DNA of 29,494 bases, taken from a virus. Below the pieces are notes generated by a model, which worked only from the letters and a program-made list of their open reading frames with translations, was not told the DNA's origin and did not search any database. Below, in pieces: positions 2-10,513 of this stretch. The stretch is taken from the IMG/VR virus record IMGVR_UViG_3300025305_002629, positions 1-29,494 of that record. One strand, written 5' to 3'. The position numbers and the translations under genes were made by a program. Positions within the stretch are counted from its first letter, which is position 1. Each line of letters starts with the position of its first letter.

Positions 2-3000
2 GAGGAGGGCTGGTGGTACGACCAGCTCACCTACGGCATGGCCGCCGGGTTCAACCGGGTGGGCGAGGCCGCCAACAAGGTGCTCGAGTCTGGTGTGCGA
101 ACCGGCGTCTATAAATACCTACCGGGAACGGCAATCCCTGCCCTGATACACCGGCTGGCTGTTGGTGAGGAGGGAGCCCAGCGCTTCCAAAAGGCGGCGG
201 CGGATCAGTTCAAGGGCGCGGCGGCGATCGCCGCCGAGGACGCCAAGATTATCGACATGGTGGCGGGCGAGACTCAGGGCGCACCGTTTGCCAAGAAACT
301 GGGCGAGGGCGCCATGAGCCTGATACCGTCGCTGGCGGGCGGTCCGGCGGGAATCTGGGGTATGGCGGTGGGTGGGGGTCTGCACTCCTACGGCAGCGCC
401 CTGGCTGATGGTGAGCGCGCCTACAAGGCGCAGGGATTTAGTGATGAAGAGGCGTTCAACAAGGCGCTGGCCCCGGCACTGGCGCAGGGGCTGGGCACGA
501 CACTGATCACCCGGGGTTTTGGCAAGACCGGTATCGAGTCAATCCTTGCGCCGGGAATGAAGGCCACCTTTAAGAGCGTGGGCAAAGCGTTTTTCAACGG
601 GGCCAAGTACGAGGCCACCGAGGAGTGGTGGGATCAGTTGTGGCAGTCGATTGTGCGCAAGATGACCTATCAGCCGGACCTGACCTTCGAGCAGGCGTTT
701 CAGGAGATGGCCGAGGCTGGTGTGATTGGCGGAATCCTTGGCGGCGTCGTTTCTGGGGTGAAGGGGGTTGAGGGTGAGGTTAAGTCCAAGATGCTCGATT
801 GGCAGATGGACAAGGACATCACCGAGCGCGGCCGTGCCATAGCGCTCGAGGAATCGTTGCCCGCCGGGTTTGCCGGTGAACCGGAGCCTGTCGGCATCAT
901 GGACACGCGCCCAGCCATCCCTAATCTTGAGGCGGACATACCGGACGTGGTGGGTGAAGGCCAGAAGGTCACGGTCAAGTACAAGGCACCGGGCGGTGGC
1001 GAGGGCATCATCGAGAGCGGCCCGGGCACCACGCGGGACACGATCCAGCGGCTGCTGTTCAACGCCAAGGCGGGCGAAGTGACCGAGGTACGAATCGACA
1101 CGGCACCGGAGGCGGCACCCGCACCGGAGCCGGTGGTGGAGGAGGCGGCACCGGAGGATGAATTTGCGCCGACTCCGGAAGAGGCAGCGATGGAGGCCGA
1201 AGCCTTTCCCGAGGAAGTGATCGAGGAAGAGGCTGCCCTCGAGGCGGAAGCGAGAGAAGAAGCGGAGGGAGAGGTACGGGCCGCTCGACTCTGGGCCCAG
1301 TCCTTGACTGAGAAGGGGATACCTAACGCTGAAGAGGTTAACCGAATCGCCGGTGAAATAAGAAAGACTAGCGAGGAAGCGGTAGATGCTTTCCTGAACG
1401 AAATTGAGAGAGCTACAAAGGCTCCTGCGCCTGAGCCGGTGAAGGAGGAGCCTGCACCTACCCCGACGCCTGCACCGGAGGAGGCGCCCGGGTTTGAGGC
1501 GCAAACGTATCAGGGCGAGCTCTCCGACGCACAGATTTTTCAGGTCCAGCAGTACGTCGAGGAGCAGGCGGAGCGTGGTGGGTTTAACCCGGAGGAGAAT
1601 GAGTCTTATGAGACTGTCTTACAGCTCAAGGAGGCGCGTCGGGTGCGTAAGGCGGCGGCCTCTCAGGGGATGCAAAAGATTCATGATCAGCAGCTTGAGC
1701 TTGAGAAGCGGCTGAATGAGCAGATCAAGGATTATTACAATGAGATTTTGGGGGAGTACCCGGATCAGTTCAAAACACAGTTGACACCGGACGAACCCCT
1801 GTTTAAGCAACCCCTGAACGAAGATGATAAGGATAGAGAAGCCACAAGACCTTCCGTGGTGGAGGAGCCGACTCGAGCACCTGAAGGAACAGGAGCCGGA
1901 CCTACTCAGGAGTCTGTGGGGCCAGAACAAATTGAAGAAGCACCTCGACCAGATCGCGGACCGGGCGCAAGAGTTGAACCACAGCCTACAGCAGAAAGGG
2001 CTGAGCGAGAGCCGGGCGAGGGAGGTCGTGCAGGCCGACGTGGTGAGCCCGATCGACCCGAGGGAGCAGAGGGAAGAGCTCCGGCCCCCGAGCCCGCAGT
2101 TGCTGAGCCAGTTGAGGGCGTGGGAAGAGCGGCTGGCGGAGAGCTAACAGATCCGAACCACAGCATTGAACCGGGCGACGAGATAGCGCCCAAGGGCAAG
2201 AAGGGCAAGGCCAACGCCAATCTTGCCGCCATCCGACTGCTCAAGCAGCTTGAGGCGGAGAACCGCCCGGCCAGCCCCGCAGAGAAGAAGGTGCTGGCCC
2301 AGTACACCGGCTGGGGCGGGGTCAAGGAGGTGTTCGAGCACGGCAAGGCGGCGGCCGGTAACGATCCCAACTGGGAGAAGGATTGGCGGCCACTCTATGA
2401 CGTGGTGCGTGCCGAGCTCGGTGACGAGGAGTATCGCCGGGCCTCGGCCTCAATCCTGAACGCGCACTACACGTCGGACGAGGTGATCGGTGAGATGTGG
2501 GAGGGCATCCGCAAGCTCGGGTTCAAGGGTGGGCGCGTGCTCGAGCCGGGCGCGGGCATTGGGCATTTCTTTGGCCTGATGCCCAATGATCTTGCCAACA
2601 AATCGCACCTGACAGGTGTGGAGATTGACAACATCAGTGGGCGCATCCTGGCCAAGCTCTATCCGCAGGCCAAGATTCACCAGAAGGGATTCGAGAAGGC
2701 CAACATCGCCAAGGGCAGCATGGATTTGATCGTGGGCAACGTGCCGTTTCACAAGGATGGCCCGGTGGACGGGGCGTATCCGAAGGCAAGCCTGCACAAT
2801 TATTATTTCCTGCGCGGCATTGACCTCCTGAAACCGGGCGGCCTGATGGTGGCGATCACGTCCAAGTCCACGATGGACAATGATGTGTCTAAGCAGTCCC
2901 GGGAATGGCTGGCGGAACGGGCCGATCTGGTGGGGGCGATCCGGCTGCCCAATGATGCCTTTGCCAAGAACGCCAACACACAGGTCACGACCGACATCCT

Positions 3001-6000
3001 GATCTTTCGCAAGAAGGACGGGATGCCGTTCAAGGAGGGCAACCTGTTCACGCGCAAGGCGGAAACCAAGACCCACAAGGGTGAGCCGATCAAGGTGAAC
3101 CAGTATTTTGTGGACAAACCGGACATGATGCTGGGGCGGTTGAGCCTTGAGGGTACGCTGTACGGGGGCGACCCGGAGATGGCGGTGCTGCCGCACAAGG
3201 GTCAGGAGCTTGGCCCGCAGATTGTGGAGGCGTTTGGCAAGCTGCCCGGGGAGGTGTTTGGCAGTGACACCACGGTCAACGATTTCACGGCGCCCGTGGA
3301 GGCGGCGCCCGGCATGAAGAACAACACGCTGGTGCTGCACGAAGGCAAGGTGGCTGCGGTGCGCGATGACGTGCTGGTGGCGCCCGAGTTCAAGCACGCC
3401 AAGACCCAGGGAGCGCGGGCAAGGGATTTTCTCGGGGTCAAGGAGGTGGCGCAGGCGATCAACCGGCTGCAGCTCGACCCGGCGGCGACCGAGGAGCAGA
3501 TCGAGGTGGAGCGTGCCCGGCTCAACAAGGTGTACGACGCCTATGTGAAGCGGCACGGGGCGTTCAACGGTTCCAAGTCGAGGTTCCTGTGGGAGCACGA
3601 CGTTGAGTTTCCCCAGCTCGCGGCGCTGGAGACGATCAGGAGCCAGTGGGTGCCCCGGATCGACAAGAGCGGCAAGGCGCGCACGGTCAGGGAGGATACC
3701 TACCACAAGTCGGACATCTTCAACCGCCGCACGGTGCGACCCCGGCTGGCGCCGACAAGCGCCGACACGGTGGGGGATGCACTGCAAATTTCATTAAGCT
3801 ACAAGAACGGGCTCGACCTTGGTTACATGGGGGGGCTGCTGGGGATCACGGCGGACAAGGCCAAGCAGTCGCTGCTCGAGCAGCAACTGGCCTTTGAGAA
3901 CCCGGACAACGGCAGGCTCGAGACGCCCGAGGAATATCTTTCCGGGCACGTCAAGGACAAGCTGCGGCAGGCGCGTGAGGCGGCCAGGGACAACCCGGCC
4001 TACGAGCGAAACGTGGCCGAGCTCGAGGCGGTGCAGCCCGCGCCGATTCCGTTGGAGAAGATTGGGTTTCGGATCGGCAGCCAGTGGATCAGTCCCAAGA
4101 TCATCGAGGGCTTCGTGCAGGACGTGCTCGGCACACCCTCGAGCGTCATTCACGTCAGTGAAACCGGCCATTGGAAAATTCAGGCTAGGGGTTATGCCCG
4201 CTCGAGCGCCAATGAAGTCACCTACGGTTTCCCGGCGGGGGACAAGCTGGGCACGGACCTGATCAATGCGGCGCTTAACATGAAGCAGCCTGCGGTGTGG
4301 GTGTCTGACCCGAGTGATCCTACCGGCAAGAAGAGAATGAAGGATCGTGTGCTGACCCGGCAGGCCCAGTTGAAACTTGATGAGATACAGCTCGCGTTCA
4401 CGGATTGGGCATTGAAGAAGCCGGAAGTGGCGCAGGAGCTCTTCCGTGATTACAACGAGCGCTTCAATGGCACGGTGGACCGGGTGTACCGGGAGCCCGC
4501 ATGGCGGCATTACCCGGGCGCGGCGGATCAAAAGGAATTATATCCGAGCCAGAAGCGTGCGGTGAGCCGCATCCTTCAGGGCAACACACTTCTTGCGCAT
4601 CAGGTGGGCACCGGCAAGACGTACACGATGGTGACGGCGGCGATGGAGATGCGGCGGCTGGGCATTGCCAACAAGCCGATGATCGTGGCACTCAACTCCA
4701 CGGTGGAGCAATTCAGCCGGGAGTTTAGGGAGCTCTACCCACAGGCCAAGGTGTTGGTGCCCACGGAAAATCAGCGGGACGCCAAGAACCGCCAGCGCCT
4801 GATGGCGATGATCAACACCGGGGATTGGGATGCAGTGATCATCCCTCACTCCTTCCTTGAGAAGATGCCGGACGATCCCAAGCGGGAGGAGGCTTATATC
4901 AATGAGGAGAAGGATGAGCTTCAGGCGGCGCTGATACAAGCCAAGGCAGCCGAGGGCGGTCGCTCGGTCCGGGCGACGACGCTCGAGTCGGCCATCAAGA
5001 GGCTCGACTCGCGGCTGGACGAGTTGCAGAAGCGCAAGGTGGACGAGGGCATGACCTTCGAGCAGCTCGGCGTGGATGCCATGTTCGTGGACGAGGCGCA
5101 CCAGTTTAAGAAGCTCTCGTTTGCCTCCCAGATGGAAACCATCAAGGGGCTGGATCGGGGCGCCAGCAAGAGGGCGAGCTCGCTGTTTCTCAAGTCGCGC
5201 TGGGTCATGGAGAACAACGACGGCAAGAATTTTGTGCTGGCAACCGGCACGCCGGTGTCCAACACGATCGCGGAAGCCTGGACGATGATCCGCTATCTCT
5301 CCCCGGAGACGCTGAAGAAGTTTGAGATGGAGCGCTTTGATTCCTTCGCCGGAATGTTTGGCAATACCACCACCGAGCCGGAGCTTACCGCCGGTGGGCA
5401 GTGGAAGCTGGTGCAGAGATTTGCCAGTTTCCAGAATCTGCCGGAGTTCAGGCGCGCATGGCGTACAGTGGCCGATCAGGTGTGGGCTAACGAAGTGGAA
5501 CAGATCAAGCTGCCGCCGCTTAAAGGGGGTGAAGTGCAGAACGTGGTGCTCGAGCGCACCAAGGCGGTGGAGGAACAGATTGCCAAGATTCAGCAGATGC
5601 TCGAGGAGTTCGAGAAGATGACCGGTCGGGAGAGGCGGGAGAACAGCCACATCCCGCTGGTGGCCACGGGGCTGGCCAAGAAGGCGACGATTGACATGCG
5701 CCTGATCGACCCGTCCCTGCCGGATGATCCCGGTAGCAAGGTCAACAAGGTGGTGGAGAACGTGCTGCAACGCTACCACGCCACGGCTGATAATTTGGGG
5801 ACGCAGTGTATTTTCTGCCAGAATGTAAAGACCCACATCGAGGGGCTCGAGCCGCATGAACAGTTCAATGTTTATGAGGAGATCAAGGCCAAGCTGATGG
5901 AGGGCGGTGTGCCGGAGCATGAGATCGCTTTTGTTACCGGTGGCATGAAGTCGGCAGAGAAGCGTGTGTTTGGCGAGAAGATGAATAGCGGTCAGGTGCG

Positions 6001-9000
6001 CATTGCCATTGGGATGACCGAGACGCTGGGCACAGGGCTCAACATTCAGGAGCGCATGGCGGCGCTGCATCATCTGGACGCGCCGTGGCGGCCGCAGGAC
6101 ATCGAGCAGCGCAATGGCCGCATCTCGAGGCAGGGCAACATGTACGCCACGCTGGGTGGTGTGGAAATCCTGACCTACGGCATGGAGCAGACGCTTGATG
6201 CGGCGATCTACCAGAAGCTCATGATCAAGGCGCAGGCCACAGAGTCATTGTTGCGGGGCGATGATGAGATGCGCGTGTCCGACGATGCCGCCAACGAGGT
6301 GGAGATGAGCTATGAGGAGCAGTTGGCGGCCTTTAGTGGGGATGAGCGCACCTTGCAGCGGGTTGGGCTGGGTCAGACGTTGCGCACGCTTGAGATGGCC
6401 CGGAGCAGTTTTGCCTCGCAGCAGGCCAAGGCGAGGGAGGATATTGTCAAGTACGAGGAGGAGCTGATCCCGCAGCTCGAGGAACGTCTCGAGCATGAGC
6501 AGGAGCTGGTGGCCAGGATTCCGGACAAGGTGGACAGCGTGGAGGTGGAGGGAAATACCTACACCGATCGCAAGGCCATCCGGATCGCGCTCGATGATTA
6601 CATCACAAAGCAGACGGCGGAGGCCAAGGCGAAGCAAAGCAAGGGGGTTGGTGCGGTTGTTACCGTCCACCATGCAGCGCCGCCGTTCAAGGTGAACGGG
6701 GAACTACTCAAGGCCACGGTCAAGGGCAGCTACGATCCCAACGCAGGCGATTGGGCCAAGGGGCCTGATGGCAAGCCTGCGGTGCAAATCCAGTATCAGT
6801 ACGAGAACCCGGTTCTGATGTCGTTGGTGGCCAACTTTAAGAGCGGGCAGGGGTTCCTGCAAAGCATGGACTCCAAGCTCAAGGAATTTCAGATGCGGCC
6901 CGAGCACACGGCGCGTGAGCTCGAGGGGTATCGCAACAATCTGCCGACGCTCCATGATGCGGTGAACAAGGAATGGCAGCGGCAGAAGGAGTATGATGAC
7001 GCGGTGCAAAAGATGGCGTTGCTCGATGCCGAGATCAAGGAGGAGCAGGAGGCGAGTGAGAAGGTTCTGCAGGCCGAGAATCGGGGCAAGGCTGGGCTCG
7101 ATCAGATCGACGAGCAGCAGAAGCGGGGCATGAAGATCGAACCCGGTGGCGGGCGTCCCGGTGAGGCTGGTTTTGTTAATTTCAATATCCTGGCTGATCT
7201 GGCCATCAAGGGCGCTGATCTGATGCGCAAGGGCTTCACCCACTTTGTGAGCTGGTCAGGCGCCATGAAGCGGGTGTTTGGTGATCGTGTGGGGCGCTGG
7301 TTAAAGAATGTCTGGAACAAGGTACAGCGTCAGAACCACGCCAAGGCGCTGAACCTCTCGCCGGAAGGTCTGGCTGCCAAGCACCGGATCGAGCGCAAGC
7401 GCGAGGTGGATGAGGAGGAGAAACCGGACTACGCCGAGGAAAGGCACCGCAGTTGGCTGCGCGATTATGTGACGCGGCAGAGTAAGAAGGTGATTTATCA
7501 CGGCAGCCCGGACCTGTTGCTCGCCCAGCAGGGCCTGAACATGCAGCACAACTACGATCAGGCGGCGGTCAAGCGGCAGGGAGAACAGCTCGAGGAGCAG
7601 CTTTGGAAGAGCCGCCCCGAGGGTTGGTCACTGCCAGGATTTCTGCGATCCGGGCCTTGGAAACGCCGAATTAAGGATTTTAAGGGGGTGTCCTTACCCC
7701 TCGCCGCTCATTTAAACGTCACAGGGCGCGATTCTGAGGGCAATTTTATCTTTGAACCCTTTGAAATGCGCGCTGGGCTCATGTCTAAGGCTCAATTCGA
7801 CAAGGGAGAGCACGATGTTGGCGACATGGTGATGGTGTCAAACCCGCTCACAGGCGAGCAGGATCAGCTTTACATCGACAAATACATCGAGACACCGGAC
7901 GGCCGCCGTGGGTTTCAGTTGATTCGAGAGATGCCTGCGCACATCCAGCAGGAGCTCTACAATCATTTTACCACTGACGAGTTCCCCGAGTTTGGCTGGT
8001 TTATCGACATGTATATCGACCCGGCGCTCAAGGACACCCGGCAGACAGTGGGCGGGGTTGAGATCCCGGTCTTTAACCGGTTCGCGCTGGCGGCCATGAT
8101 GGCCGAGAACAACCCGAACTTTGATCCGCTGGACGCCTACACGCCTGACGTGCTGGTGAGTCGCTCGCTCTTTGGCGCGATCCGCAAGGTGTTGCAGCTA
8201 CGCACCGGCACACGCTCGGCTGGGCGCAAGTACAAGACCGGGAAGAGCCGTGAAGAGGGCAAGGTGCTCGATCTTTTGAGTGGCTTTAATGTACGGGCGT
8301 TGCAGGCGATTCAGGAGCGCTCACGCAAGCGTTGGCTTAAACAAGTCATCAAGCACGGCAAGGCTTTTAAGGGAACCCACCCGCCGGAGGGCTGGGTGTC
8401 GCTCGAGCAGGGTGTTCCCGAGATTTGGGCGGCGATCAAGAAGGTGCGCGGTTGGAATCTGCCCAAGGACCCGATCACCGGCGAGGCTGCGTTTCCCGAG
8501 ACGGAGATGCGCTTGCAGGAACAGGCCGAGGAGGATGCGTTCAAGGAGTTCATGGGCGAGGCATTTCGGTTGCGGGGCAAACAGGTGGCCATCCCTCGGC
8601 CGCTCCTCGATGTGCTGGTCAAGCAGTACGCCAGCCAGCAGGCGCATGGGCCGCTGTATAACACGCTCACATGGATGTTGCGCAATTCGAAGATTCTGTT
8701 CCTCGGTGATCCAATCACGATCGTCGGTAATATCGTTGCCAACGACTTTTTCAATCTCGAGGCCGGGTTCCGGTACAGCACCGTCGGGGCGCTGAAAATG
8801 CTGGCGCTCGACCCGAAGAACGCCGCCCTTAATTTTCGCCGGGCGCGCAATCTATTTGTCGGCCAGGTTTTCAACCGGTTCATGGGCGCCCGGAAATATC
8901 TGCCCGGGCCGAACAGTAACTTCCGCGAGGCGATCGAGACGGTGTTGCCGGATGAAATCTTTGCGGACTCGACCCGGTTGCAGGACCTCAAGATCAAGTA

Positions 9001-10513
9001 CGATGACAAGTGGTGGAATCTGCTCAAGCAGGGCGAGCTCGGCGGCGCGTCGATGGCGCTGGTGAAATACGGCAACATAGACATCCGGGCCAAGCAGCGC
9101 TTCGCCTACGCGATGCTCCGGGCCGATGCCGTCACCCAGGGCAAGGCCAAGGGCCTGCGCGGCAAGGCGCTCAAGTCGTTCGTCAATGAGTTTATGGCCA
9201 ACCCGCCGATGGACGCCCGCCTGACGGCGATCAACGCGGCCCAGTTGGAGATGCTCAACTACGCCGACAGTCCGGATTTTATCAATGACATCGTAAAGAA
9301 TGACTTCGGTGCACTGATCAGTGCCTTCCCTCGCTTTGGTGCGGCGTACATCAACAAGCAGGGCGATCGTGCCGCCGGGCTCAAGCGATTCATCCGGGGC
9401 GTGCCGCAGGGGCAACGAGCCGAGGCGCTGGCCGATGTGGTTACGTTCTCGATGTTCGGCGCCGGGGCGATCGGGTTGGTGGGTGCGGCGGCGCTCGCGC
9501 TGCTAAGGGGAGATGATGAGCCGCCCGAGGATGCCCGAGAGGTGGTGGGCACCAGCGATATTTTGGTGGATGATGGGCTGGGCAATCTGGAGCGGAAGCG
9601 TATCGACCCGGAATTTATCACTGCCAACCGGATGAACATTTCCAAGTGGGGGGAGCTGGCTGGGATTGATCTCGATGATGACCGGGATTTCTGGCTGCGC
9701 GTTCGGCAGTACCCGGTGATCGGCATGGCGGGCGCGGCGGTGCTCGCCCAGAACGACTACCGGAAGCACGGGGCGGCGGTTGCGGCCGAGACTTACGCCA
9801 GACATGTCACTGAGCTCGGAGGTGAGTTTTTAAGCCTCGGCGTGGCATTCCGTGTCCCGTTCAAGGCGCTGGCGGATTGGCAGGCGGGCGAACCGTCGCC
9901 CACGCCGGTCGATCCCTACGCCGGAGGCGTGCCGTTCAAGTTTTATGTGACCGACGAGCTCATGGGCGCCTTTATCCCGGGTCAACGCCAGTTTGACCGG
10001 GTGATCGCCTGGGTGGACCCGGTTTACAAGCGGACGAGGCAAAGTGAGCGCATGGGCTACGATCCCGGCCCGCTCGAGGCGATCCGGGCCAGCCATCTCA
10101 CTGGCCTGATCGACCGGATCGGCGCCCAACGGGGTGCTTGGGACCCGATGTTGCCGAAGGGTAAGGTCGAGACTGAGATCAGTCTGGTGCCCTCGAAGAG
10201 TATGCGTCCGGATCGGATACCGCTATGGGTCGAGGCCCAGAAGCTGCGGTTCAGTGACAGCGCTGCTGAGCGCGCCCGTGTGAATCAGTACAAATCGGTC
10301 CGGAACCTGACCAAGCCCGCGACCGGCTGGAAATACCGCACCGAGGCCGACAAGCTCGCCCTGATCCCGCAGGAGAATCTGGTGGAAATCCCGCTTGAGA
10401 GTCGCATCTCGAGCCTGTTCGGTGTTAATTTGAGGGCCTTTGACAAGAAGGGCTACGCCGAGGCCATCGACACCACGTTGCCGCCCCTCATGCCACCTCG
10501 TCCGCCCCGATGA
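2..10513 (+). CDS. Giant polyvalent virion protein: N6-adenine methyltransferase + SNF2-type helicase (5' partial)
   Basis: The frame is open from base 2, so the real start lies upstream. The first ATG in view is at 38 (3,491 residues from there; residue numbers count from it). Order: Gly/Ala-rich amphipathic segments (1-260); Pro/Glu-rich linker (290-490); coiled coil (500-600); low-complexity linker (600-715); N6-adenine methyltransferase with QYTGWGG (755), an SAM-binding LEPGAGIGH (about 836) and catalytic-type NVPFH (901); SF2/SNF2 helicase with Walker A HQVGTGKT (K1527), DEAH box (D1685), ATGTP motif III and QRNGRISRQG motif VI (Q2024); coiled coils; then a C-terminal region with a hydrophobic stretch near 3134-3158. 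Methylase-helicase fusions of this kind (DarB-like, 'large polyvalent proteins') are carried in phage heads or on conjugative elements and protect incoming DNA from restriction. The C-terminal part resembles LPD38-type regions, which is a weaker inference. The next gene overlaps its stop as ATGA. Confidence 0.9.
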   Translation, partial: EEGWWYDQLTYGMAAGFNRVGEAANKVLESGVRTGVYKYLPGTAIPALIHRLAVGEEGAQRFQKAAADQFKGAAAIAAEDAKIIDMVAGETQGAPFAKKLGEGAMSLIPSLAGGPAGIWGMAVGGGLHSYGSALADGERAYKAQGFSDEEAFNKALAPALAQGLGTTLITRGFGKTGIESILAPGMKATFKSVGKAFFNGAKYEATEEWWDQLWQSIVRKMTYQPDLTFEQAFQEMAEAGVIGGILGGVVSGVKGVEGEVKSKMLDWQMDKDITERGRAIALEESLPAGFAGEPEPVGIMDTRPAIPNLEADIPDVVGEGQKVTVKYKAPGGGEGIIESGPGTTRDTIQRLLFNAKAGEVTEVRIDTAPEAAPAPEPVVEEAAPEDEFAPTPEEAAMEAEAFPEEVIEEEAALEAEAREEAEGEVRAARLWAQSLTEKGIPNAEEVNRIAGEIRKTSEEAVDAFLNEIERATKAPAPEPVKEEPAPTPTPAPEEAPGFEAQTYQGELSDAQIFQVQQYVEEQAERGGFNPEENESYETVLQLKEARRVRKAAASQGMQKIHDQQLELEKRLNEQIKDYYNEILGEYPDQFKTQLTPDEPLFKQPLNEDDKDREATRPSVVEEPTRAPEGTGAGPTQESVGPEQIEEAPRPDRGPGARVEPQPTAERAEREPGEGGRAGRRGEPDRPEGAEGRAPAPEPAVAEPVEGVGRAAGGELTDPNHSIEPGDEIAPKGKKGKANANLAAIRLLKQLEAENRPASPAEKKVLAQYTGWGGVKEVFEHGKAAAGNDPNWEKDWRPLYDVVRAELGDEEYRRASASILNAHYTSDEVIGEMWEGIRKLGFKGGRVLEPGAGIGHFFGLMPNDLANKSHLTGVEIDNISGRILAKLYPQAKIHQKGFEKANIAKGSMDLIVGNVPFHKDGPVDGAYPKASLHNYYFLRGIDLLKPGGLMVAITSKSTMDNDVSKQSREWLAERADLVGAIRLPNDAFAKNANTQVTTDILIFRKKDGMPFKEGNLFTRKAETKTHKGEPIKVNQYFVDKPDMMLGRLSLEGTLYGGDPEMAVLPHKGQELGPQIVEAFGKLPGEVFGSDTTVNDFTAPVEAAPGMKNNTLVLHEGKVAAVRDDVLVAPEFKHAKTQGARARDFLGVKEVAQAINRLQLDPAATEEQIEVERARLNKVYDAYVKRHGAFNGSKSRFLWEHDVEFPQLAALETIRSQWVPRIDKSGKARTVREDTYHKSDIFNRRTVRPRLAPTSADTVGDALQISLSYKNGLDLGYMGGLLGITADKAKQSLLEQQLAFENPDNGRLETPEEYLSGHVKDKLRQAREAARDNPAYERNVAELEAVQPAPIPLEKIGFRIGSQWISPKIIEGFVQDVLGTPSSVIHVSETGHWKIQARGYARSSANEVTYGFPAGDKLGTDLINAALNMKQPAVWVSDPSDPTGKKRMKDRVLTRQAQLKLDEIQLAFTDWALKKPEVAQELFRDYNERFNGTVDRVYREPAWRHYPGAADQKELYPSQKRAVSRILQGNTLLAHQVGTGKTYTMVTAAMEMRRLGIANKPMIVALNSTVEQFSREFRELYPQAKVLVPTENQRDAKNRQRLMAMINTGDWDAVIIPHSFLEKMPDDPKREEAYINEEKDELQAALIQAKAAEGGRSVRATTLESAIKRLDSRLDELQKRKVDEGMTFEQLGVDAMFVDEAHQFKKLSFASQMETIKGLDRGASKRASSLFLKSRWVMENNDGKNFVLATGTPVSNTIAEAWTMIRYLSPETLKKFEMERFDSFAGMFGNTTTEPELTAGGQWKLVQRFASFQNLPEFRRAWRTVADQVWANEVEQIKLPPLKGGEVQNVVLERTKAVEEQIAKIQQMLEEFEKMTGRERRENSHIPLVATGLAKKATIDMRLIDPSLPDDPGSKVNKVVENVLQRYHATADNLGTQCIFCQNVKTHIEGLEPHEQFNVYEEIKAKLMEGGVPEHEIAFVTGGMKSAEKRVFGEKMNSGQVRIAIGMTETLGTGLNIQERMAALHHLDAPWRPQDIEQRNGRISRQGNMYATLGGVEILTYGMEQTLDAAIYQKLMIKAQATESLLRGDDEMRVSDDAANEVEMSYEEQLAAFSGDERTLQRVGLGQTLRTLEMARSSFASQQAKAREDIVKYEEELIPQLEERLEHEQELVARIPDKVDSVEVEGNTYTDRKAIRIALDDYITKQTAEAKAKQSKGVGAVVTVHHAAPPFKVNGELLKATVKGSYDPNAGDWAKGPDGKPAVQIQYQYENPVLMSLVANFKSGQGFLQSMDSKLKEFQMRPEHTARELEGYRNNLPTLHDAVNKEWQRQKEYDDAVQKMALLDAEIKEEQEASEKVLQAENRGKAGLDQIDEQQKRGMKIEPGGGRPGEAGFVNFNILADLAIKGADLMRKGFTHFVSWSGAMKRVFGDRVGRWLKNVWNKVQRQNHAKALNLSPEGLAAKHRIERKREVDEEEKPDYAEERHRSWLRDYVTRQSKKVIYHGSPDLLLAQQGLNMQHNYDQAAVKRQGEQLEEQLWKSRPEGWSLPGFLRSGPWKRRIKDFKGVSLPLAAHLNVTGRDSEGNFIFEPFEMRAGLMSKAQFDKGEHDVGDMVMVSNPLTGEQDQLYIDKYIETPDGRRGFQLIREMPAHIQQELYNHFTTDEFPEFGWFIDMYIDPALKDTRQTVGGVEIPVFNRFALAAMMAENNPNFDPLDAYTPDVLVSRSLFGAIRKVLQLRTGTRSAGRKYKTGKSREEGKVLDLLSGFNVRALQAIQERSRKRWLKQVIKHGKAFKGTHPPEGWVSLEQGVPEIWAAIKKVRGWNLPKDPITGEAAFPETEMRLQEQAEEDAFKEFMGEAFRLRGKQVAIPRPLLDVLVKQYASQQAHGPLYNTLTWMLRNSKILFLGDPITIVGNIVANDFFNLEAGFRYSTVGALKMLALDPKNAALNFRRARNLFVGQVFNRFMGARKYLPGPNSNFREAIETVLPDEIFADSTRLQDLKIKYDDKWWNLLKQGELGGASMALVKYGNIDIRAKQRFAYAMLRADAVTQGKAKGLRGKALKSFVNEFMANPPMDARLTAINAAQLEMLNYADSPDFINDIVKNDFGALISAFPRFGAAYINKQGDRAAGLKRFIRGVPQGQRAEALADVVTFSMFGAGAIGLVGAAALALLRGDDEPPEDAREVVGTSDILVDDGLGNLERKRIDPEFITANRMNISKWGELAGIDLDDDRDFWLRVRQYPVIGMAGAAVLAQNDYRKHGAAVAAETYARHVTELGGEFLSLGVAFRVPFKALADWQAGEPSPTPVDPYAGGVPFKFYVTDELMGAFIPGQRQFDRVIAWVDPVYKRTRQSERMGYDPGPLEAIRASHLTGLIDRIGAQRGAWDPMLPKGKVETEISLVPSKSMRPDRIPLWVEAQKLRFSDSAAERARVNQYKSVRNLTKPATGWKYRTEADKLALIPQENLVEIPLESRISSLFGVNLRAFDKKGYAEAIDTTLPPLMPPRPPR
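1824..2147 (+). CDS. Nested alternate-frame ORF, 107 aa, charged helical protein, function unknown
   Basis: This ORF lies wholly inside the giant gene, one frame over. It opens with ATG at 1824, just after an in-frame TGA (1815-1817), and ends with TAA at 2147. By hand count about 86% of its codons end in G or C, like the rest of this genome, whereas the main frame over the same bases is only about 38% and is full of GGA, GCA, CCT, CGA and GAA. The product reads like a real soluble helical protein (KKHLDQIADRAQELNHSLQQ, then ESRAREVV) and has its own LE pair written CTC-GAG. The main frame here is a Pro/Glu/Arg/Gly-rich linker with no recognisable fold. No good Shine-Dalgarno is visible; AACGAAG precedes the ATG. 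It is either an overlapping gene or the trace of a formerly separate gene read through after fusion. I do not recognise its family. Confidence 0.5.
   Translation: MIRIEKPQDLPWWRSRLEHLKEQEPDLLRSLWGQNKLKKHLDQIADRAQELNHSLQQKGLSESRAREVVQADVVSPIDPREQREELRPPSPQLLSQLRAWEERLAES

Follow-up and report, generated by a model that had tools for sequence, protein, structure and literature searches.

Giant gene and nested reading frame

Judged from its own sequence and from that of its relatives, the reading frame at positions 1824 to 2147 (+ strand) of the window is a real and ancient gene that lies wholly inside a giant gene, on the same strand and in the +1 frame to it. We consider the explanation as a whole, in which a nested gene is translated by internal initiation and reached its present place through the fusion of an operon, very likely to be correct, with about an even chance given to a partner role for its product. 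The window is the whole stretch of DNA analyzed here, positions 1 to 29,494 of the IMG/VR record IMGVR_UViG_3300025305_002629.

The giant gene (2–10513, + strand) encodes a DarB-like polyvalent protein with the arrangement LPD36-MTase-SNF2/SF2 helicase, and matches phrog_10089 (DarB-like antirestriction) with an E-value of 7e-277. The window does not include its 5′ end; contig L003, which is near-identical, has the start at a GTG about 250 nt upstream of the window. The LPD36/N6-adenine MTase part begins directly 3′ of the nested gene (2156–3100, + strand), and a profile match places the helicase part (ResIII/SNF2-like) at 4532–4792 (+ strand). The protein is about 38% identical to those of phage records annotated as DarB-like/PLxRFG, and the contig also carries genes for a terminase, a major head protein and DnaB. 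DarB-like or MTase-helicase polyvalent proteins were described by Iyer et al. 2017 (PMC5512222), and DarB of phage P1 protects injected DNA from type I restriction (PMC5512222). With its LPD36-MTase fused to an SF2/SNF2 helicase in a very long phage protein, the product of the giant gene belongs among them. Ten differences separate L003 from the window, of which five fall within 71 bases (757–827) and three in a single codon (11–13) near the window edge.

The nested ORF runs from ATG to TAA on the + strand and encodes 107 amino acids, as originally predicted. Its start (1824–1826, + strand) is the sole ATG, GTG or TTG before the conserved core of the protein. Over 1824–2147, GC3 is 85.2% in the nested frame and 37.6% in the giant frame, compared with 76.7% over the whole giant ORF, which bears out the hand counts of the original prediction (86%, 38% and the 80s). 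In sliding windows the flip is sharpest exactly at 1824–2147; giant-frame GC3 is also somewhat low (0.54–0.69) in the linker just upstream, at 1136–1783. The third codon position of the giant frame is the second position of the nested frame, and the first position of the giant frame is the nested wobble position, so a constrained nested frame must give such a flip. A second, smaller dip of giant-frame GC3 (0.60) was seen at 7616–7939, where no other frame shows an excess. Read in the giant frame, the same DNA (1823–2149, + strand) gives a linker rich in Gly, Glu, Ala, Arg, Asp and Pro and nearly without Cys, Trp, Phe, Met and Tyr, much like the Pro/Glu/Arg/Gly linker that had been described from the sequence, and profile searches with this linker returned no convincing match (no Pfam match).

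Relationship of the nested protein to TnpV

A profile search with the 107-aa product, as had been proposed for checking the prediction, returned a distant match to Pfam TnpV (PF14198). The conserved core, amino acids 12–67 (1857–2024, + strand), matches this family with an E-value of 6e-5 and 23.4 bits, which is under the curated cut-off of 27 bits. Within the nested family, 29 of 60 members match PF14198 at an E-value of 0.01, the best reaching 2.7e-44, and an iterated HMM joins the window protein to TnpV of Bacillota, the homology running via intermediate sequences. By sequence comparison, then, the nested protein is a distant relative of TnpV. It shares the helical core of PF14198 (TnpV of Tn4451 and relatives), and nested members from Bacillota are clear TnpV proteins; TnpV of this family is, however, encoded by a separate transposon gene, whereas the window protein is encoded wholly inside another gene, in another frame, in a virus contig.

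AlphaFold2, supplied with 60 relatives, gave a confident all-helical model of the nested protein (1824–2144; pLDDT 86). Foldseek searches of the model against PDB and BFVD gave no significant match; the top BFVD hit, Q8W6J4_2, is presumably the ORF of phage PBC5 itself. The best structural match was PDB 2apl (PG0816 of P. gingivalis), with Z 6.7 and an rmsd of 1.9 over 62 residues, which for a small helical protein is a weak match without sequence support and serves as a lead only. We take PG0816 to be a member of DUF1896 (PF08989). In conjugative elements of Bacteroides, genes of the DUF1896 family are neighbors of MTase-helicase genes. A search for the DUF1896 family found no match in the window or in control genomes, and none was annotated beside the giant gene in the single Alistipes plasmid inspected from the Bacteroidota. 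Two other kinds of hit were set aside: PADLOC matches were weak, single-member and formed no coherent family, and profile hits to designed helical proteins in PDB were compositional.

Distribution of the nested layout

Used alone as a query, the nested protein found no relatives in phages or plasmids (tblastn) nor in genome contigs. Relatives were collected via the downstream MTase part of the giant gene, and all six-frame ORFs were then searched. A single-sequence search placed the nested protein at the same site in about 35 loci, all in the +1 frame and with the giant frame open. An iterated profile raised this to 135 copies, 131 of them nested in giant MTase/SNF2 genes and four separate and not covered by a giant frame; all 131 nested copies share the +1 frame, and the giant frame runs open through each of them. 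Nested homologs occur in 62 of 80 IMG/VR loci, 63 of 80 genome loci (mostly mobile elements of Bacillota) and all six of the phage records first fetched. Most genome loci without a match have little upstream sequence, and most viral loci without one still have a +1 ORF with a GC3 flip just before the MTase; no such ORF was present in four or five of the 80 viral loci. The nested gene is absent from darB of phage P1.

The same layout was found in plasmids of Campylobacter, Virgibacillus, Rhodococcus, Corynebacterium, Streptomyces, Arthrobacter and Cohnella, although some of the plasmid proteins are too diverged for the profile. The Arthrobacter locus L182, a candidate for a separate gene, proved on a frame check to be nested too. 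In a tet(O) conjugative plasmid of Campylobacter jejuni, a +1 ORF of 166 codons is nested close to the beginning of the SNF2 gene and shows the same pattern of GC3 (L178:5432–5929). At four further loci (L024:9552–9968, L035:9558–9962, L040:9540–9983 and L172:8645–8974), +1 ORFs with the same site and the same GC3 flip encode proteins that are not recognizably TnpV-like, and this site in giant genes may host several nested protein families. At three loci, a second TnpV gene stands on its own immediately 3′ of the giant gene (L101:13863–14240, L097:13866–14243 and L047:13941–14318).

Start sites and selection on both frames

The small TnpV-like protein would be made by internal initiation on the mRNA of the giant gene. 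An ATG with a Shine-Dalgarno-like motif of at least 4 nt is present in 110 of 121 family members, and a motif of at least 5 nt precedes 75 of 117 nested starts compared with 1.4% of 7805 control ATGs in the same frame, a count that is somewhat favored by the choice of each nested start as the best candidate of a few. Unlike most homologs, the ATG in the window has almost no Shine-Dalgarno sequence (−0.6 kcal/mol); several other genes of this virus likewise lack one.

These starts bear on the possibility that programmed ribosomal frameshifting joins the nested frame to the N-terminal half of the giant protein and so yields an alternative N-terminal-TnpV fusion. The constant +1 relation of the frames would suit such a mechanism, as would orf33 of Sinorhizobium phage PBC5, in which the N-terminal part and the TnpV-like part form one ORF. 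A fusion product, however, needs neither a start codon nor a ribosome-binding site, while most members have an ATG and a good Shine-Dalgarno sequence exactly at the conserved N-terminus. Moreover, the change of frame in PBC5 comes from a local difference immediately ahead of the TnpV start. All compared relatives lack it and have the two frames separate, which points to a single indel (mutation or sequencing error). We therefore regard frameshifting as highly improbable and internal initiation as the better account. Apart from this indel, none of the loci with a nested ORF had the giant frame broken, so the search for relatives with one broken frame turned up no case against the overlap.

The giant frame is open across the nested genes far more often than chance would allow. 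When nested genes were recoded with genomic codon usage, the giant frame was expected to stay open in 3.3 of 122 distinct loci, and when each gene's own codons were shuffled, in 24.7 of 122; it was observed open in all 122. The third frame carries 10.5 stops on average across nested genes, and among TnpV hits in five whole genomes the −1 frame is closed in those that lie outside giant genes.

Both frames also leave their mark on substitutions. In 18 separate pairs, third positions of the giant frame changed at 6.4% in the overlap, compared with 27.7% in the MTase part and 34.9% in the upstream flank, which is 4–5 times less than in flanking giant sequence (Fisher tests with sites treated as independent, p = 1e-117 and p = 1e-128, respectively). 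Synonymous sites of the giant frame, named beforehand as a check, are thus strongly constrained where the two frames overlap. Between the window and its nearest divergent relative (L011), 23 of 97 giant third positions changed in the overlap and 617 of 925 in the comparison (p = 3e-16). The sole close contig, L003 (99.9% identical), shows no difference from the window in the overlap; relatives were therefore gathered through the MTase part.

The same 18 pairs speak to the idea of a relic, in which a fusion engulfed an old tnpV-like gene that now serves as a linker only, its own frame no longer translated. The giant frame is indeed read through in all loci, and the peptide it gives has the look of an ordinary disordered linker. 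Over the same DNA, however, amino acid change is 11% in the nested protein and 21% in the giant-frame peptide, and the second codon position of the nested frame changes least; in a relic, the Shine-Dalgarno sequence, the start and the frame would be lost, yet all are kept across phyla. Such a relic is extremely improbable. There is next to no chance that a Gly/Glu/Arg/Pro linker in GC-rich DNA gives a long +1 frame fortuitously, for although recoding the giant frame alone leaves the +1 frame open in about 43 of 122 loci, the +1 products are homologous across loci (HMM E-values down to 1e-43, and the Pfam match), the gene also occurs in AT-rich elements (e.g., L141 and L175), a start and Shine-Dalgarno sequence are present, and the giant-frame wobble position is frozen. 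The first of the two alternatives offered by the original prediction, an overlapping gene, is strongly supported by the 131 loci that share one frame relation, the suppressed synonymous change of the giant frame and the ATG with a Shine-Dalgarno-like motif in most members.

Origin of the overlap

In the Acaryochloris plasmid pREC3, the TnpV gene is separate and stands directly upstream of the MTase-helicase gene, overlapping its start by 8 nt; its −1 frame contains 13 stops. Of the two alternative frames, the −1 frame is the one with fewer stops in most separate TnpV copies, about half as many as the other. The ancestral state would have been, on the simplest account, an operon in which the small gene preceded an MTase/helicase gene. 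Upstream domains would then have been fused to the latter through the small gene, read in its less stop-rich alternative, the −1 frame. One clearly non-nested adjacent case, that of Acaryochloris, suggests this later fusion through the middle gene. Given a fusion through the −1 frame, the Gly/Glu/Arg/Pro linker of the giant protein would be the overprinted novelty and the small gene the older partner, and the composition of the linker in the giant frame fits the expectation for a newly read frame.

The second alternative of the original prediction, a fusion of three genes, accordingly fits as an evolutionary route, a history that we infer from the separate small gene on pREC3, and both alternatives are probably true together. 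In a tree of this short protein, which cannot root the history, separate copies are scattered among nested ones. This scatter makes it likely, as far as sequences can tell, that TnpV genes have also escaped from nests.

Possible function of the small protein

Since the small gene stays with the MTase-helicase gene even where it is separate, as in Acaryochloris, its product may be a partner of the MTase-helicase, a role to which this lasting linkage gives about an even chance. The small protein could, for example, act as an adaptor for the injected anti-restriction protein or help in its assembly or packaging, and translation of both from one mRNA (co-translation) would keep the small and giant proteins in proportion.

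A different role would make the small protein a transposon or excision (Xis-like) factor with no tie to anti-restriction; the gene would be real and its overlap a matter of genome compression only. This reading is a rival of the partner role and leaves the overlapping gene itself untouched. For TnpV of Tn4451, a part in excision was postulated from its similarity to lambda Xis (PMC3158075). Separate TnpV genes in transposons and plasmids, and their scatter among nested ones in the tree, agree with such a role. On the other side, the gene is kept at the MTase-helicase gene in very different phages and plasmids and adjoins it even where separate, and the similarity to Xis is a statement of the literature. 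We judge an excision role unlikely, though it deserves serious consideration beside the partner role.

Annotation and relation to known overlaps

No phage record examined annotates the nested gene as a separate gene. The giant gene alone is listed at the site, apart from PBC5, which lists the frame-merged orf33 (L008:1811–8401), where a difference of one base has apparently brought the N-terminal part and the nested protein into a single frame. Of two long overlapping genes on one strand, gene finders generally retain one, and the nested gene is for this reason missing from every properly framed phage record checked. The PHROG 938 family, labeled "endolysin", matches nested proteins over the last 100 of 2185 profile positions, which fits the frame-merged ORF of PBC5; the endolysin function was rejected, and since the family carries what appears to be a merged tail of the PBC5 type, nested proteins come to be mislabeled as endolysin. 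Five plasmid records do annotate the small gene (L182:6549–6956, L195:1252–1911, L196:4396–4941, L198:4651–4926 and L176:6004–6342). In these the giant gene either has its listed start immediately behind the small gene or is missing from the record, even though the giant frame has no stop across the small gene; the giant starts as listed may be wrong.

The Rz/Rz1 spanins are known nested same-strand phage genes, those of BcepMigl being an example. The present pair resembles them in that a whole gene with its own start lies inside another in a different frame. It differs from them in that the family of the hidden gene is an old one already known on its own account, while the linker of the giant gene looks like the new reading. 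It is also distributed across several phyla, and across phages, plasmids and mobile elements in chromosomes. Neither TnpV nor an overlap is mentioned by Iyer et al. (PMC5512222), and a search of the open-access literature, with subscription journals outside its scope, found no report of a TnpV/giant-gene overlap. TnpV, DarB-like polyvalent proteins and overlapping genes were each already known; the overlap of a TnpV-like gene with the giant gene is apparently new.

A wider view can be put forward, which we hold to be somewhat less likely than not: that the small gene and the multi-domain anti-restriction gene, which share the same DNA in Pseudomonadota, Bacillota, Actinomycetota, Campylobacterota and Synergistota, whether in phages, on plasmids or in chromosomal mobile elements, would be among the most widespread same-strand nested genes of prokaryotic mobile DNA, with the linker overprinted, the two products forming one complex, and "transposon" TnpV genes being escaped copies. 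The nested layout links TnpV, a family so far unexplained, to the polyvalent anti-restriction proteins, for which the small gene offers a concrete candidate partner, and it explains the odd Gly/Glu/Arg/Pro linkers of the giant proteins as a tnpV-like gene spelled in its −1 frame. The overlap is old, widespread and directly testable, and makes it possible, as few systems do, to trace such an arrangement through many lineages while the separate-gene state is still alive for comparison.
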